Below, in pieces: positions 11,874 to 20,172 of a DNA stretch of 64,000 bases. The notes beneath the pieces were generated by a model that saw only the letters and a list, made by a program, of their open reading frames with translations, was not told the origin of the DNA and did no database searches. This stretch comes from Thiohalorhabdus denitrificans (lineage in GTDB: Bacteria; Pseudomonadota; Gammaproteobacteria; Thiohalorhabdales; Thiohalorhabdaceae), in contig NZ_LJCP01000011.1 of assembly GCF_001399755.1 (NCBI RefSeq), forward strand, positions 186,001-250,000. Direction: 5' to 3'. Position numbers and translations under genes: made by a program. Positions within the stretch are counted from its first letter, which is position 1. Every line of letters starts with the position of its first letter.

Positions 11874-14327
11874 TCACTTGGCCACCACGTTCACCAGCTT
11901 GCCCGGCACCACGATCACCTTGCGCACCGGGGTATCGCCCACCACCTCCCGGATCCGCTCGTTGGCCAACGCCTGCTCGCGGATGGTGTTCTCGTCCGCG
12001 TCGGCGGGCACCTGGATCTGGGAGCGGTTCTTGCCGTTCACCTGCACCACCAGCTCGATGGTGTCCCGCTCCAGGGCGGCGGGATCGGCCTCGGGCCAGG
12101 CGGCGTCCTCCACGGCGCCCTCCTTGCCCAGGCCCGCCCACAGGGCGTTGGCGACGTGCGGGGTCATGGGGGCGAGCAGCCGCACCACGGCGTCCAGGCC
12201 CTCGCCCACCACCGCCCGAGTCGCCTCGTCGGTGGCCTCCGCCGCCTTGGACAGGGCGTTGGTGATCTCCATAGCCGCGGCCACGGCGGTGTTGAAGTGG
12301 TAGCGCTCGCGCACGTCCACGCTGGCCCGCTGCACCAGCTCGTGCACCTGGCGGCGCAGCTCGGCGGCCTCCTCCGGAAGCTCGGCGGGCAGCGCCGGGG
12401 CGGTACCGCCCTCGGCGTAACCCCCCACCAGCCGCCACAGGCGATGGAGGAAGCGGTGCATGCCCTGCACCCCCTCCTCCTGCCATTCCAGCGCCTGGTC
12501 CGGCGGCGCCGCGAAGAGGATGAACAACCGCACGGTGTCGGCGCCGAAGCGGTCGATCATCTCCTGCGGGTCCACCACGTTGCCCTTGGACTTGGACATC
12601 TTGGCGCCGTCCTTCAGCACCATGCCCTGGGTGAGCAGGCGCTGGAAGGGCTCGTCGTTGTCCAGCAGGCCGGCGTCGCGCATGAGCTTGTTGAAGAAGC
12701 GCGCGTAGAGCAGGTGCAGCACGGCGTGCTCCACGCCGCCCACGTACTGGTCCACCGGCAGCCAGTAGCGGGCGCGCTCGTCGGCCATGGCGGTGCCGCT
12801 GTCGGGGCAGGCGTAGCGGACGAAGTACCAGGAGGACTCCACGAAGGTGTCGAAGGTATCCGTCTCGCGCACCGCCGGGCCACCGCACTCGGGGCAGGCG
12901 GTCTCGTAGAACTCGGGGGCCTGCTTGAGGGGCGAGCCGGCCTCGTGGAGCTCCATCTCCGGCAGCTCCACCGGCAGGTCCTCCTCGGGCACCGGCACGG
13001 CGCCGCAGGCCTCGCAGTGGATCACGGGGATGGGCGCGCCCCAGTAGCGCTGGCGGGACACGCCCCAGTCGCGCAGCCGGTAGTTCACCCGGCGCTCGCC
13101 CCGGCCCAGGGTCTCCAGCCGGTCGGCGATGGCGCCGAAGGCCTCGGCGGAGGTGAGGCCGTCGAAGTCGCCGGAATTCTGCAGCACCCCGGGCTCGGTG
13201 AAGGCCTCCTCCATGGCGGCGGCCTCCAGGTCGCCGTCCTCGGGGCGGATCACCACGCGGACGGGGATGCCGTACTTGCCCGCGAACTCGAAGTCCCGCT
13301 GGTCGTGGGCGGGCACGGCCATCACCGCGCCCTCGCCGTACTCCATGAGCACGAAGTTGGCGGCGTACACGGGGAGGCGCTCGCCGGTGACGGGGTGCAG
13401 GGCGTAGTCGCCGGTGGGGATGCCCTCCTTCTCCTGGGCCTCCAGGTCGCCCTCGGCGGTGGAGCGGTGGCTCATGCGCTCCACGAAGGCGGCCACGTCG
13501 CTGTCGCGCTCCGCCGCGGCCTGCGCCAGGGGGTGCTCCGGGGCCACCGCCACGTAGGTAACGCCCATGAGGGTATCGGGCCGGGTGGTGAACACCGACA
13601 GCTCGCGCTCGGCGCCCTCCACGGGGAAGCGCACCTCCACGCCCTCAGAGCGGCCGATCCAGTTGCGCTGCATGGCCCGCACCTCGTCGGGCCAGCCGGG
13701 CAGGTTGTCCAGCTCCTCGAGCAGCTCGTCGGCGTAGTCGGTGATGCGCAGGAACCACTGGTCGATCTCGCGGCGCTCCACGGGCGTGTCGCAGCGCCAG
13801 CAGGTCCCCTCCACCACCTGCTCGTTGGCGAGCACGGTCTGGTCGTTGGGGCACCAGTTCACCGCCGCCTTCTTGCGGTAGGCCAGGCCCTCCTTGAGGA
13901 GGCGCACGAACAGCCACTGCTCCCATTTGTAGTAGTCGGGGTCGCAGGTGGCGAGCTCGCGGTTCCAGTCGTAGCCGAAGCCGAGCCGCTTGAGCTGGCC
14001 GCGCATCTCCTCGATGTTCTGGCGGGTCCAGGCGGCCGGGGAGACGCCACGGGCGATGGCGGCGTTCTCCGCGGGCAGCCCGAAGGCGTCCCAGCCCATG
14101 GGCTGCAGGACGTTCTTGCCCTCCATGCGCTGGTAGCGGGCGATCACGTCGCCGATGGTGTAGTTGCGCACGTGGCCCATGTGCAGCCGGCCGGACGGAT
14201 ACGGGAACATGGAGAGGCAGTAGAACTTCTCCCGCTCCGGATCCTCCGCGGCGGCGAAGGTGTCCTCCGTTTCCCAGCGGGCCTGCACGGCCCGCTCCAC
14301 CTCATGGGGGTTGTATTCACGCTCCAT
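11874..14327 (-). CDS. leuS: Leucyl-tRNA synthetase
   Basis: This class I synthetase charges tRNA-Leu. The 817-aa protein has the HIGH-type motif in [14 protein letters not shown] near residue 43, the KMSKS motif in [12 protein letters not shown], zinc-type cysteine pairs ([26 protein letters not shown]) and the editing-domain line [20 protein letters not shown]. The ATG at 14327 is chosen because [18 protein letters not shown] is the family start; an upstream extension to 14381 adds unrelated residues. It is the first gene of the lptE-holA-proA-nadD-rsfS-maf-rng series. Confidence 0.97.
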
Positions 14328-14686
14328 GGCGACCCTGCCGGTATCGGGGTTCCCCTGACGAACAAGCCCCGGCACCACCAACGCGGGCCGGGACCACCCA
14401 AACGTTAAATTGTGACACAGGGCGGCCGAATCGCGGAAGCACGGGCCTATGGGCGGGGCCGTTCCCGCCCCGGACCCTGACCCGCCTCAAGGGAAAGGCT
14501 GGCGGGCCCCCGGGGGTTTTTGTCATGATTCCCCCGATGCCCGCCACCCGCGGGAATCCGGTATCATGCCCGCTACCGGTTCCGGGTACAGCGGCAATGC
14601 ACGCCCGCCGGGAAGCTGGTACCCTCTCTTTCCGCGAGAGTCGAGCCCCTCGGCTCGACCCCCCTTATGCGCCACCATCGGATACC
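14328..14686. other. Divergent promoter region between leuS and the Fpg-like gene
   Basis: The 359-base gap separates divergently transcribed genes and should hold both promoters. TTAAATTGTGACACAG near 14405-14420 is the only AT-rich patch. Further on there is an inverted pair CGAGAGTCGAGCC/GGCTCGACC near 14634-14660. I see no supported gene. Confidence 0.4.
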
Positions 14687-15478
14687 ATGCCGGAACTACC
14701 CGAGATCGAGATCAGCCGTCAGCGCCTGGATCCCAAGATCCTCAACCGTCCCCTGCATGCCCTGACGGTTCTGGACGAGCGAATCCTGCGGGAGATCCCC
14801 GCCGACGAGCTGCGGGAGGGACTGATCGGGGCCTCCTTCACCGGGATCGCCCGCTTCGGCAACTACCTCCTGCTGGAGGTGGGCGGCGAGGCCGCGCTGC
14901 TCCTCGGCCTCAGCGCCAGCGCCAGCGTCGAGCAGGTCCGCCCCCAGGAGGAGCCGCCCAAGAGCACCCGGCTCGGGCTGTTGTTCCAGGACGGCGGCGG
15001 CCTGGCGGTGGTGGACCCGCAGGCTCGTACCTGGCTCACCCTCCTGCGGGACGAGGCCGAGGTCCCCGACCTGGGCACCTTCGGCCCCGACGCCCTGAAC
15101 GGCCAGCCCGATCCCGAGCAGTGGCGGGAGGCCCTGAAGAGCCGGCGGGCCCAGATTAAGGGCCTGCTCCTGGAGCCCACCCTCATCGCCGGCCTCGGCC
15201 CCCTGTTCACCGACGAGATCCTCTTCCAGGCGGGCATCCGCCCCGATCACCGCGCCTCCGACCTGAGCGACGAGGAGGCCGACCGCCTGCGCGAGGCGGT
15301 GCAGGCCACCCTGCAGAAGGCCGTGCAGTGCCAGGCCAACCCCCAGCAGCTCCCCAAGACCTACCTCACCCGCTCCCGCGACGAGGGCCGCGAGGAATGC
15401 CCCAAGTGCGGCGGCCCGCTGGAGAAGCGCCAGATCCAGGGCCGCGCCAGCGTGTTCTGCCCGGCCTGCCAGAGCTGA
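14687..15478 (+). CDS. Fpg/Nei-family DNA glycosylase-like protein, atypical active site
   Basis: The 263-aa product begins PELPEIEISRQ, keeping the catalytic Pro2 (after Met removal) and Glu3 of formamidopyrimidine/endonuclease VIII glycosylases. It ends with an intact zinc finger (C238, C241, C258, C261) with the QIQGRASVFCPACQ hairpin. Several family positions differ: the lysine of RxGKYLL is Asn (RFGNYLLLE, residue 59), the GMSG motif reads GLSA, DPRRFG reads DPQARTW, and GxGNxY reads GLGPLF. The start is the ATG giving PELPE. It is divergent from leuS and monocistronic. It could repair a different lesion or bind DNA without full glycosylase activity. Confidence 0.85.
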   Translation: MPELPEIEISRQRLDPKILNRPLHALTVLDERILREIPADELREGLIGASFTGIARFGNYLLLEVGGEAALLLGLSASASVEQVRPQEEPPKSTRLGLLFQDGGGLAVVDPQARTWLTLLRDEAEVPDLGTFGPDALNGQPDPEQWREALKSRRAQIKGLLLEPTLIAGLGPLFTDEILFQAGIRPDHRASDLSDEEADRLREAVQATLQKAVQCQANPQQLPKTYLTRSRDEGREECPKCGGPLEKRQIQGRASVFCPACQS

Positions 15479-15546: not shown

Positions 15547-16662
15547 TTACTGCAAAAGGGTGTCCATGGTGGCTGCGGAGACCTCGCTCCAGTCCATTGG
15601 CTCCATGTCTAGCGTTTTATCCGAGGTAGTCACATAGACGGTGGAGTTATCCCCGGTGTTCGCGTCAAGCTTTACCCAGGTACCGTTTCCACCATTGACC
15701 CGCAGGACGCCGGTAGCCGGATAGGGGTTGGAATTGGTCGAGTAATCGGACCAGGTGAAGTAGGTGGTTTTATCATGGTCCACGGTCACGCAGCCCAGGT
15801 CCCCCAGGCAGCTCTTGTACACCTTGCCGTTTTCGGGGTCGGTGCCGTGATAGACCAGGACGGGGTCCAAAGTACTATCGTCAGAACCGGCCCAGATCTC
15901 CGCGTTCTCGAGCAGGAACTGCTCGCCCTGGGCGAAATCCACCATTTCGATATTGGCCACCATCACCATGTCCACCGAGGCCGGAGCCTCGTGCGGCATC
16001 CCGGGCCCGTCACCCTCGGCGTCGTAATTCTGGGCCTCGGTGCCGCTCAGCATCCGGAAATCGCCGTCCACACCGAAATCCATCCCCGACCCCTGCATGG
16101 TGAGGTCGCGAAAATCCATGGACCAATCGATGTCCATCCCGTCCGCAGCGCCCGCGGTGTAGGCAACCGCAAACCCCCCATCAAAGGTCAGGCCATCCTC
16201 CTCCACGCAGCTGTCGAAGGAGTAAACCATCTCGTCCCCGTCACTGAGGGCCTCGTTGCCGTCGTTGTCCTTGAGGGTGAAGGAATAGCTTCCCCCTTCC
16301 GGGCAGGACTTTTCCTCGGTGTAATCCGCCCCGGCGAGCACTTCCTGGCCACCGCCTGACACCTCCTGATCAAGGCCCTTCTTGGCCCGGTCCAGTCCCA
16401 CCTGCAGGACATTTACGGCCTCCGTGGGGAGAGACCCCTCCACAGCGGAAACCGTATCCTCGGAGCTGGCCGCCGTGGTGGATCCCGATAGCACCCCGCT
16501 CAGGGCATCCGAGCCGTTGCTCTCGTCGATCTCGGCCTCGCTGGTGCTGCCCGTATAGGTGACGGTTCCACCACCGCCGCCACCACCGCTGCTACCACAG
16601 CCCACCAGACCAACAGGCACCGCCAGGGCGGCGGCCAGCATGGAAACCTTCGTGCCGTTCAT
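15547..16662 (-). CDS. Putative lipoprotein of unknown function, 371 aa
   Basis: The start has a strong RBS (AAGGAGGAAGTG before ATG). The signal peptide ends in the lipobox LVGC, followed by SSGGGGGGG, a flexible tether. The mature part is acidic, with several Cys (SCPEGG, SCVEED, SCLGDLGC), and reads as alternating strands with repeated Asp/Gly turns (LKDNDGNEALSDGDEMVYSF; DGGFAVAYTAGAADGMDIDW). I do not recognise the family. It is probably a periplasmic or surface beta-rich lipoprotein. The gene is alone, convergent to the Fpg-like gene and closed by a shared terminator. Confidence 0.8.
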   Translation of the reverse strand: MNGTKVSMLAAALAVPVGLVGCGSSGGGGGGGTVTYTGSTSEAEIDESNGSDALSGVLSGSTTAASSEDTVSAVEGSLPTEAVNVLQVGLDRAKKGLDQEVSGGGQEVLAGADYTEEKSCPEGGSYSFTLKDNDGNEALSDGDEMVYSFDSCVEEDGLTFDGGFAVAYTAGAADGMDIDWSMDFRDLTMQGSGMDFGVDGDFRMLSGTEAQNYDAEGDGPGMPHEAPASVDMVMVANIEMVDFAQGEQFLLENAEIWAGSDDSTLDPVLVYHGTDPENGKVYKSCLGDLGCVTVDHDKTTYFTWSDYSTNSNPYPATGVLRVNGGNGTWVKLDANTGDNSTVYVTTSDKTLDMEPMDWSEVSAATMDTLLQ

Positions 16663-17021
16663 CACTTCCTCCTTTTCCCCTTTTGTTTCGCCCGTGCCTA
16701 CCCAAACCGGGAACAGCCCCAAACTTGCGGGCCCGGTGCCCGACCAACGACCCCTTGCGGCAGGTACCCACTTCCCGGCTGGAAGACACAAAGGCTTTCC
16801 GGATTTTTCCGGGCCCCTGCTTTTACTCCCGTCCAGTGTTTCCTGTCAAATTCCTGAGAATGAAGGGTTCTGAAGACCAATGTCCCGAAAAAGAAGTGCA
16901 ATCGGACATTGTTTGCGACAACCGATCCCTCTGTCCCAGGGTTGATGGGGGACTTTGCCGGCCCGGAAGGGCGCCTTTTGCGGTACCATCGCCGCCCCAT
17001 TCGCCACCTAGCCCGTGAACC
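16663..17021. other. Divergent intergenic region
   Basis: The 359 bases lie between the lipoprotein gene (minus) and the DUF3187 gene (plus). Both promoters should be here. No gene or clear repeat is visible. The most AT-rich patch is GTTTCCTGTCAAATTCCTGA near 16838-16857. Confidence 0.35.
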
Positions 17022-18186: not shown

Positions 18187-18672
18187 CTACTTCTGCTCCC
18201 ACGGCAGCCCGGCGGCCTTCCAGCCGCCCTGTTTGCCCCGGTGGCCCTGCTCGTCCTTGTCGCCCTCGAAGCCCTGGAGCAGGTTGTAGGTCTCGGCGTA
18301 CCCCTGCCGGGCCATGGCCTCCGCGGCCTTGCCGGAGCGCCCGCCGCTGCGGCACATGAACACCAGCACCTGGGAGGTGTCGGTACCCACCTCGGACTGC
18401 AGCTGGGCGGGGAAGTCCGGGTTGTACTCCATGCCCGGGTAGGTCTCCCACTCCACGTGCGTGCCCAGAGCGGGGTACCCCACGAAGTCCCGCTCCGCCT
18501 GGGTTCGCACGTCCACCAGCTGGGCGTTGGGGAGCTTCTCCAGCACCGCGTAGGCCTCCTCGGGGGTCATCTCGCCCGTGAAGTCCTTGCCCTTTTCCCG
18601 GGCGCGCTGCCGGGCGCGGTCGAGGATGGCCTGGGGGTCCTCGTCGGGGATTCGGGAACCTTTTTCGGTCAT
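18187..18672 (-). CDS. Rhodanese-like sulfurtransferase domain protein
   Basis: This 161-aa single-domain rhodanese lacks a signal peptide and is probably cytoplasmic. The domain runs from GEMTPEEAYAVLEKLPNAQL through VDVRTQAERDFVGYP to the active-site loop FMCRSGGRSGKAAEAM, whose Cys would carry persulfide sulfur. CAGGAGACGTCC precedes the ATG at 18672. It is divergent from a PP-loop thiouridylase-like gene followed by tusA, which suggests that it supplies or receives sulfane sulfur in the same relay. The short C-terminal tail (HRGKQGGWKAAGLPWEQK) resembles other rhodaneses of sulfur-oxidiser and phototroph genomes. Confidence 0.85.
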   Translation of the reverse strand: MTEKGSRIPDEDPQAILDRARQRAREKGKDFTGEMTPEEAYAVLEKLPNAQLVDVRTQAERDFVGYPALGTHVEWETYPGMEYNPDFPAQLQSEVGTDTSQVLVFMCRSGGRSGKAAEAMARQGYAETYNLLQGFEGDKDEQGHRGKQGGWKAAGLPWEQK

Positions 18673-18881
18673 GGACGTCTCCTGAGCGTGGGAATCCGTG
18701 CCCCCTCGGGGCGGAGCTCCCATCCATGGGAATTTTCTGCGCCAATACGTTACCATCCGGGGCTGGAATTCTACGCCCAACCGGGCCCTCGGGGGAATTT
18801 GCCCCGGGGGCGGATGTACCGTTCCACAAGGTTTGTTTCTCCCCTCGACGGGAGCGCACATACATGCAGGAGGAAGGCGGA

Positions 18882-19925
18882 ATGAGCGAGCAGCCCAAGG
18901 CCGTGGCACTGCTCTCCGGCGGGCTGGACTCGATGCTGGCCGCCGCGGTGGCCAAGGAGCAGGGCGTCCACGTTGAAGGCATCAACTTCTTCACGGGCTT
19001 CTGCGTGGAGGGCCATACCCACGCCATCCGTCAGAAGGACAAGGACAAGGCCAAGCGCAACAACGCCCTGTGGTCCGCCGAGCAGGTGGGGATCAAGCTC
19101 CACATCGTCGACATCTCCCAGGAATACGTGGGGGTCGTCACCAACCCCAAGCACGGCTACGGGCAGAACCTCAACCCCTGCCTGGACTGCAAGGGCTTCA
19201 TGGTGGCCAAGGCCCGCGAGTGGATGGAGGAAAACGGCTTCGACTTCATCATCACCGGCGAGGTGATCGGCCAGCGGCCCAAGTCCCAGCGGCGCGACAC
19301 CTTCCCCATTATCGAGAAGGAATCCGGGGCGGACGACCGGCTGCTGCGCCCCCTGTGCGCCAAGCAGCTGGCGCCCACGCTCCCCGAGCGGGAAGGCTGG
19401 GTGGACCGTGAGCGCCTCTACGACTTCACCGGGCGCTCGCGCAAGCCGCAGATGGAGCTGGCCGAGCGGTACGGCTTCGAGGAGTACAGCCAGCCGGCCG
19501 GCGGCTGCTGCTTCCTCACCGACGAGAACTTCTCCCGCAAGCTGGCGGACCTGTGGAGCGCCCGCGGGAGCAAGGAGTACGACCTCGACGACGTCATGCT
19601 GCTGAAGATGGGCCGCCACCTGCGCCCGGCGCCCAACTACAAGCTGATCATCGCCCGCGAGGACGGCGAGAACCGCTTCATGAACGGCTACCGCAAGCGC
19701 TTCCACGCCGTGCGCGACCTGGACTACCCGGGACCGCTGGCGCTGGTGCAGGGCGAGCCCGACGAGGCGGACCTGGAGACGGCGGCGCGCATCACGGCCC
19801 GCTACGGCAAGGGCCGCAGCGCCGAAAGCATCCGCGCGGAGATCACCCCGCCGGGCGGCGAGCCCTACGTGACCGAGGTGGCGCCCATGCCGCCCGCGCA
19901 GATCCCCGAGGAATGGCATGTCTGA
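18882..19925 (+). CDS. PP-loop ATPase, ThiI/MnmA-like thiouridylase-type protein
   Basis: The 347-aa protein starts with a PP-loop (LLSGGLDSMLAA, residues 10-21), which adenylates a tRNA or other acceptor for sulfur insertion. It has a CLDCK cysteine pair, the line ITGEVIGQRPKSQRRDTF, RPLCAKQLAPTLPEREGW and GRSRKPQMELA, then PAGGCCFLTD. These fit a family often annotated as tRNA thiouridylase-like and related to ThiI, but distinct from MnmA and lacking THUMP and rhodanese domains. ATG 18882 has AGGAGG eight bases upstream. It overlaps a tusA-like gene by 8 bases, supporting sulfur transfer. The target base is unknown. Confidence 0.8.
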   Translation: MSEQPKAVALLSGGLDSMLAAAVAKEQGVHVEGINFFTGFCVEGHTHAIRQKDKDKAKRNNALWSAEQVGIKLHIVDISQEYVGVVTNPKHGYGQNLNPCLDCKGFMVAKAREWMEENGFDFIITGEVIGQRPKSQRRDTFPIIEKESGADDRLLRPLCAKQLAPTLPEREGWVDRERLYDFTGRSRKPQMELAERYGFEEYSQPAGGCCFLTDENFSRKLADLWSARGSKEYDLDDVMLLKMGRHLRPAPNYKLIIAREDGENRFMNGYRKRFHAVRDLDYPGPLALVQGEPDEADLETAARITARYGKGRSAESIRAEITPPGGEPYVTEVAPMPPAQIPEEWHV

Positions 19926-20172
19926 GGAGAAGGAACGGGAATTCCTCGACGCGCGCAGCCTGCTGTGCCCCATGCCGGTGATCCGCGCCGGGGAGCGCAT
20001 CGCCGAGCTGGAGCCCGGCACGGAGCTGGAGGTGCGCGCCAGCGATCCGGGCGTGCTGCACGACATCCCGGCCTGGTGCCGGGTCAACGGCCACACCGTC
20101 CTGGAGGCCCGCGAGGAGGGCGACGAGCTGGTGGTGGTCCTGCGGGTGGGCGCGGACGATGACGACGCCTGA
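19918..20172 (+). CDS. TusA-family sulfur carrier protein
   Basis: The 84-aa TusA-like protein has the signature LDARSLLCPMPVIRAGERIA with the sulfur-carrying Cys in CPMP, followed by ELEPGTELEVRASDPG and DIPAWC. TusA proteins accept persulfide from a desulfurase or rhodanese and pass it on. The start overlaps the end of the PP-loop gene by 8 bases and its stop overlaps the following CDF gene by 14, so the three are translationally coupled. Partners are probably the PP-loop protein and the divergent rhodanese. Confidence 0.9.
   Translation: MSEEKEREFLDARSLLCPMPVIRAGERIAELEPGTELEVRASDPGVLHDIPAWCRVNGHTVLEAREEGDELVVVLRVGADDDDA

Follow-up and report, generated by a model that had tools for sequence, protein, structure and literature searches.

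A conserved Fpg/Nei-superfamily clade, probably of pseudo-glycosylases, in Thiohalorhabdus and the Acidithiobacillus-containing order

We analyzed a stretch of 64,000 nucleotides from Thiohalorhabdus denitrificans (the window), which carries a gene for an Fpg/Nei-fold protein in which several residues of the canonical active site are replaced. This gene, its orthologue in congener G001 and a gene of the Acidithiobacillus-containing order form one monophyletic clade, and on balance we lean toward the view that the clade is a conserved, real pseudo-glycosylase branch of the Fpg/Nei superfamily. Comparison of its members suggests that their shared role is probably non-catalytic binding of nucleic acid or protein, and that the job of the window gene is probably something other than excising damaged bases. 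The relevant features of the window are as follows, with residues numbered here and throughout as in E. coli Fpg (Pro = 1) unless the ORF is named.

11874..14381, - strand: leuS, divergent neighbor
14687..15478, + strand: Fpg/Nei-fold protein, assigned to the putative pseudo-glycosylase clade; 263 aa plus stop (ORF, Pfam, tree and model)
14690..14695, + strand: Pro2-Glu3 of the ORF, equal to Pro1 and Glu2 in mature Fpg numbering; the catalytic dyad, kept
14861..14863, + strand: Asn59 of the ORF, replacing Lys56 of E. coli Fpg, within RFGNYLL (alignment)
14906..14917, + strand: GLSA where canonical HLGMSG has HLGM; Gly replaces His70 and Ala replaces Met73
15014..15034, + strand: DPQARTW for DPRRFG; Arg108 to Gln, Phe110 to Arg
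15083..15337, + strand: H2TH domain, ORF residues 133-217 (Pfam)
15191..15208, + strand: GLGPLF for GVGNIY; Asn168 to Pro
15332..15373, + strand: QANPQQLPKTYLTR, a short linker of the kind seen across the clade; here and in the sister group, the lesion-capping loop region of canonical enzymes is missing
15398..15469, + strand: intact four-cysteine zinc finger, C238/C241/C258/C261 of the ORF
18187..18909, - strand: rhodanese-domain protein, convergent neighbor conserved at clade loci; true start probably internal

Fold, family and genomic setting of the window protein

Pfam and structural modeling both assign the two-lobed Fpg/Nei fold to the window protein. Fapy_DNA_glyco, H2TH and zf-FPG_IleRS all score above their cut-offs, the AlphaFold model has a mean pLDDT of 94.7, and a fold search places this model on solved MutM-DNA complexes, some 250-260 residues aligning with Z ~30 and rmsd ~2. 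For the Acidithiobacillus clade member L039, the model has pLDDT, taken by blocks, of ~96-98 in the C-lobe and of 64-80 in parts of the N-lobe. Relative to E. coli Fpg, the window protein carries K56N, M73A, R108Q, F110R and N168P, with His70 to Gly as a further loss; there is no change at Pro1, Glu2 or the zinc cysteines, and the alignment indicates that Lys154 and Arg258 are retained. An earlier sequence-only reading had described an Fpg/Nei-like protein with an intact PELPE and zinc finger, and sequence and Pfam analysis bear out that description along with every motif change it named.

The ORF opens with MPELPE. Another ATG in the same frame occurs farther upstream, at 14525, but the start at 14687 is supported because the first start of the ORF in congener G001 is MPELPE itself. 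Since the G001 orthologue, 86% identical to the window protein, keeps both GLGPLF and DPQARTW, the changes are not sequencing or annotation noise. At the position of canonical Lys56, this orthologue has His.

The window protein falls short of each family model for a characterized activity. It scores 152 bits against TIGR00577, the Fpg/MutM equivalog (cut-off 203.3), which the Acidithiobacillus member L039 also fails to reach at 125.1 bits. Scores of 74.2 against the endonuclease VIII model NF007763 (cut-off 252) and 40.9 against the Nei2 model NF040775 (cut-off 400) led us to reject membership in Nei or Nei2. Family models label such genes formamidopyrimidine-DNA glycosylase; in this case the residues that define that reaction are missing across a whole order, in which the gene itself persists.

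Three Fpg-family genes were found by searching the organism's own genome (99.89% complete): the window gene, L003 and L002. L003 is a canonical MutM (297.7 bits to TIGR00577), which answers the question, raised in the sequence-only reading, of whether a second, canonical mutM exists; the window gene is therefore not the organism's MutM. L002 (1501-2289 of its locus) has a PELPDVE-type start and keeps all seven core residues (Pro1, Glu2, K56, R108, K154, N168 and R258), and the ORF upstream of it encodes what we take to be a PolX-type polymerase.

Several observations concern the surroundings of the gene. Just upstream of it, GTCGAGCC/GGCTCGAC form a perfect inverted repeat of 8 bp around a 4-base loop (window 14640-14659). 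No promoter or terminator consensus was found near the gene, and a search of the whole window for an RNA leader or riboswitch returned zero Rfam matches at gathering scores. An anti-phage system was rejected, there being no PADLOC match. Between the Fpg-like and rhodanese genes sits an ORF (15547-16791, - strand) whose start resembles that of a lipoprotein and which contains a poly-Gly run; it gave no Pfam match. Farther along, the rhodanese gene (-), a gene for a ThiI/MnmA-type HUP protein with an NFACT-R_2 domain (+) and TusA (+) stand together at 18187-20172, possibly as a sulfur-relay cluster.

Distribution and ancestry of the clade

Among 369 genomes across the class, the clade appears at high score only in the window's own genus and one order, where it is found in 31/31 genomes; the lower-scoring matches that were read are residue-intact MutM or PELPDVE-type proteins. 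The order is linked to Acidithiobacillus by L039 (Acidithiobacillus sp.), whose protein is identical to that of genome G382. No further clade members were found among 398 genomes spread over the phylum. TIGR00577 matches all of these 31 order genomes, and in 29 of them a gene exceeds the cut-off, which makes it a canonical MutM. The exceptions, G381 and G395, have completeness values of 85% and 69%. A mutation private to a single genome was rejected, the changes being common to the congener and the Acidithiobacillus order. Carriage on plasmids was likewise rejected: none of the matches, which fall in 55 plasmid records, reaches 60% identity, the best listed being 29.8%, and the ten matches listed are MutM-like or unannotated.

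Our main tree contained 96 rows, including a diverse 30 of the 80 loci from a contig scan and 24 class MutM rows; E. coli MutM and Nei were its only characterized rows. The 28 clade rows group together with support 100/98, with MutM, including that of E. coli, elsewhere. Clustering within a characterized clade, which the sequence-only reading had named as contrary to its proposal, did not occur in this tree. The L002 group adjoins the clade, and the clade, this 12-row PELPDVE group and one long-branched planctomycete row are joined with support 100/98. A second tree omitted 16 functional or nearby columns and ten clade rows; here 100% of the 200 bootstrap replicates recovered the clade, whose branch support was 96/77.

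Gene order agrees with the clade tree. The rhodanese gene lies downstream in the window and at 11/12 other clade loci, and leuS lies within 5 kb upstream in 7/12. In the third congener, G002, a single contig carries both leuS and the rhodanese gene, but the Fpg-like gene is absent from the interval (L210), and no clade member was found elsewhere in this 82% complete genome. This is a clean loss at a conserved locus, and because the gene is absent there at the same place, it is dispensable in G002. Taken together, the clade would be old and vertically inherited; we would place its split from a residue-intact Fpg-like group in the ancestor that the window's genus shared with the Acidithiobacillus order.

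In the literature searched, no paper joins Acidithiobacillus and formamidopyrimidine-DNA glycosylase, and the one paper found with both Acidithiobacillus and mutM gives, in its available part, a single mutM, AFE2758 (PMC2621215). Among the papers listed for inactive or paralogous Fpg or for DNA-glycosylase pseudoenzymes, we found nothing on the clade. A published conservation set of 124 Fpg sequences was, as its available text states, filtered for an N-terminal Pro-Glu (PMC5422863), so that members starting with Ala were removed by construction.

Residue conservation, charge, selection and candidate roles

Residues were counted in 30 of 34 clade rows, the truncated L195, L196 and L197 and the duplicate L039 being dropped. 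K56, M73, R108 and N168 are each retained in 0/30 full-length members, H70 in 1/30, K154 in 2/30, Pro1 in 4/30 and R258 in 5/30. The remaining 26/30 have Ala at Pro1. Glu2 is retained in 27/30, which suggests that the site is still under some demand; the three members without it (Gly in two, Asp in one) all lack Pro1 as well. Zinc cysteines 243, 246 and 263 are present in 30/30 each. The seven core residues are kept in all 33 class MutM proteins and all 29 from the Acidithiobacillus order, and the sister group, set against the clade, holds them in 12/12 rows. Both active groups are invariant at 27 columns, of which the clade loses 8/9 functional ones versus 2/18 others (Fisher p = 1.7e-4, or 9.4e-4 without H70, which we count as functional on an assumed role), and the two lost non-functional columns, G75 and G111, adjoin M73 and F110.

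Because Pro1 is Ala in 26/30 members, Glu2 is lost in three and K56 and N168 survive in none, the function under selection across the clade would be independent of Pro1 chemistry; judged by these counts, it can need neither Pro1 nor Lys56. The sequence-only reading had proposed, from the kept nucleophile, either a different substrate range or a non-catalytic DNA-binding role. The prevalence of Ala at Pro1 favors the non-catalytic option clade-wide, the kept nucleophile proves not to be a clade-wide property, and DNA binding stays putative, because the losses extend beyond catalysis to the phosphate clamp and to the wedge in the base stack. In L. lactis Fpg, the available text reports, Met75, Arg109 and Phe111 insert into the stack, kink the DNA and evert the base (PMC5422863). 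The residues for base eversion and excision (K56, H70, M73, R108, F110 and N168, and mostly Pro1) are gone from the clade. Under the explanation we prefer, the glycosylase work would have gone with them, the C-lobe with its H2TH domain and zinc finger would be the working part, holding nucleic acid or a partner protein, and the product would serve alongside MutM in recognition or as an adaptor, without catalysis.

That the clade is instead enzymatically active, as a glycosylase or AP lyase whose site has been rewired, its new residues compensating for those lost and its substrate a different one (single-stranded DNA, crosslinks or AP sites only), seems to us doubtful. The window protein may indeed cut AP sites, since it keeps Pro1, Glu2, Lys154 and Arg258, and in E. 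coli Fpg, according to the accessible portion of one study, mutants of R108, N168 and R258 have oxoG catalytic constants lowered at least tenfold with AP-site activity much less affected, those of N168 and R108 retaining much of it (PMC4737139). Yet Pro1 is absent in 26/30 members, three of which also lack Glu2, and position 56 varies freely among N, H, P, T, Q, A and G, with no single new residue taking the place of Lys. In M. smegmatis Nei2, moreover, P2A and K51A abolish AP lyase, whereas 5-OH-uracil glycosylase is abolished by E3A and K51A and kept in full by P2A (PMC11323726, available text); if Nei2 Lys51 is equated with Fpg Lys56, by way of the E. coli Nei Lys aligned at that position, then the residue needed for both activities is one that the clade has lost. 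For the window's genus alone, where Pro1 and Glu2 are present, a residual AP-lyase activity is possible as something other than the clade-wide selected trait, and the four retained residues may reflect a private change of substrate.

The combination of K56 loss and N168P recurs outside the clade, and could mark an alternative working mode of the kind that a rewired enzyme would require. The contig scan supplied 78 other Fpg-like proteins, once L039 and the truncated L046 were set aside from its 80 loci. Pro168 occurs in 18 of them, every one of which also lacks K56; Pro1 and Glu2 are present in 78/78, a sample that favors MPELPE starts and is therefore uninformative on how common Pro1 loss is. 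The 18 comprise Saccharibacillus proteins (L044, L053, L058 and L091) and one Actinomycetota/Acidobacteriota family (L049, L062, L063, L056, L084, L094, L098, L112 and others), several of whose members lack the zinc cysteines. Both groups are separate from the window clade in the tree built without functional columns. We suggest only tentatively that Fpg-fold proteins have been converted repeatedly to conserved non-glycosylases through loss of the Lys56/Asn168 phosphate clamp, in at least three separate bacterial groups, counting the present clade, the Actinomycetota/Acidobacteriota family and Saccharibacillus; these might form an unrecognized class of non-excising sensors or adaptors, in which the Acidithiobacillus branch would have gone furthest by discarding the nucleophile.

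The protein-only half of our preferred explanation, an adaptor or regulator (for example of MutM or of the adjoining sulfur-relay proteins) that makes no contact with nucleic acid, is improbable when taken alone. The net charge of the window protein is -9.3 and the clade median is -2.0 (32 rows), compared with +10.4 and +12.5 in canonical MutM, so that strong nonspecific DNA binding is not expected. The N-lobe is acidic (clade median -4 versus +2 and +5 in canonical MutM, the N-lobes of E. coli MutM and Nei being slightly acidic too), and 18 of the 26 columns conserved as positive in MutM have lost that charge, all of which would suit a protein partner, as would the conserved rhodanese neighbor. 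Eight of those columns are still positive, however; positive charge persists at the positions of R10, R53, K149, K154 (as Arg), R238 and R258 (as Lys), and the clade has gained new conserved Arg/Lys, mostly in the C-lobe. The rhodanese gene, for its part, is convergent rather than co-directional, and the shared housekeeping order looks like plain ancestry.

Selection was compared in 28 genomes with both the clade gene and MutM, which gave 378 pairs, 83 of them with dS of 0.1-1.5 for both genes. In these 83 pairs, which share ancestry and are non-independent, dN/dS has a median of 0.111 and a mean of 0.155 for the clade gene, versus 0.136 and 0.165 for MutM; in 56/83 the clade gene has the smaller ratio. 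Protein identity is higher for the clade gene in 302/378 pairs. Between the window gene and its G001 orthologue, dN is 0.091 and dS 0.571, for a dN/dS of 0.159, compared with 0.269 for the L002 pair. By this sequence-based measure, the clade protein and MutM are under equally strong purifying selection. A functionless duplicate decaying toward loss, to which the many missing catalytic residues and the absence of the gene from the leuS-rhodanese locus of G002 might point, is highly improbable given these ratios, the absence of internal stops in the clade matches listed and the kept zinc ligands.

Running from members with Pro1 and Glu2 through to those with Ala1 and Gly2, the clade is a mutagenesis series provided by nature on a single fold. 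Such a series would reveal what an Fpg-type protein does without excision.

Comparison with known Fpg/Nei proteins

The nearest residue-intact relatives of the window clade form its sister group, whose proteins start in a PELPDVE-like manner and to which L002 belongs. Like the window protein, they have a short linker ahead of the zinc finger. We know of no characterized member of this group.

Fpg/MutM (TIGR00577, NF002211) shares with the window protein the fold over its whole length, PELPE, the H2TH domain and the four-Cys zinc finger. It differs in the residues replaced in the window protein (K56, H70, M73, R108, F110 and N168) and in the lesion-capping loop region, absent from the latter, and its role is filled separately in the window genome by the canonical L003.

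Mammalian NEIL3, with Val, is an exception to Pro1 (PMC11323726, available text), as are the 26 clade members with Ala1; unlike the role proposed for the clade, NEIL3 is an active enzyme, and we set it beside the clade by description only. Because NEIL3 has Val and Nei2 P2A keeps its glycosylase, Pro1Ala alone is no proof of inactivity. For M. smegmatis Nei2, also of the Fpg/Nei family, the same available text reports that AP lyase is neither needed nor sufficient in vivo, where P2A rescues psoralen resistance (PMC11323726). Unlike the window clade, Nei2 has intact catalytic residues, and its Glu3 is required in vivo; the clade complements the finding, in that text, that Nei2 acts in vivo without lyase activity (PMC11323726).
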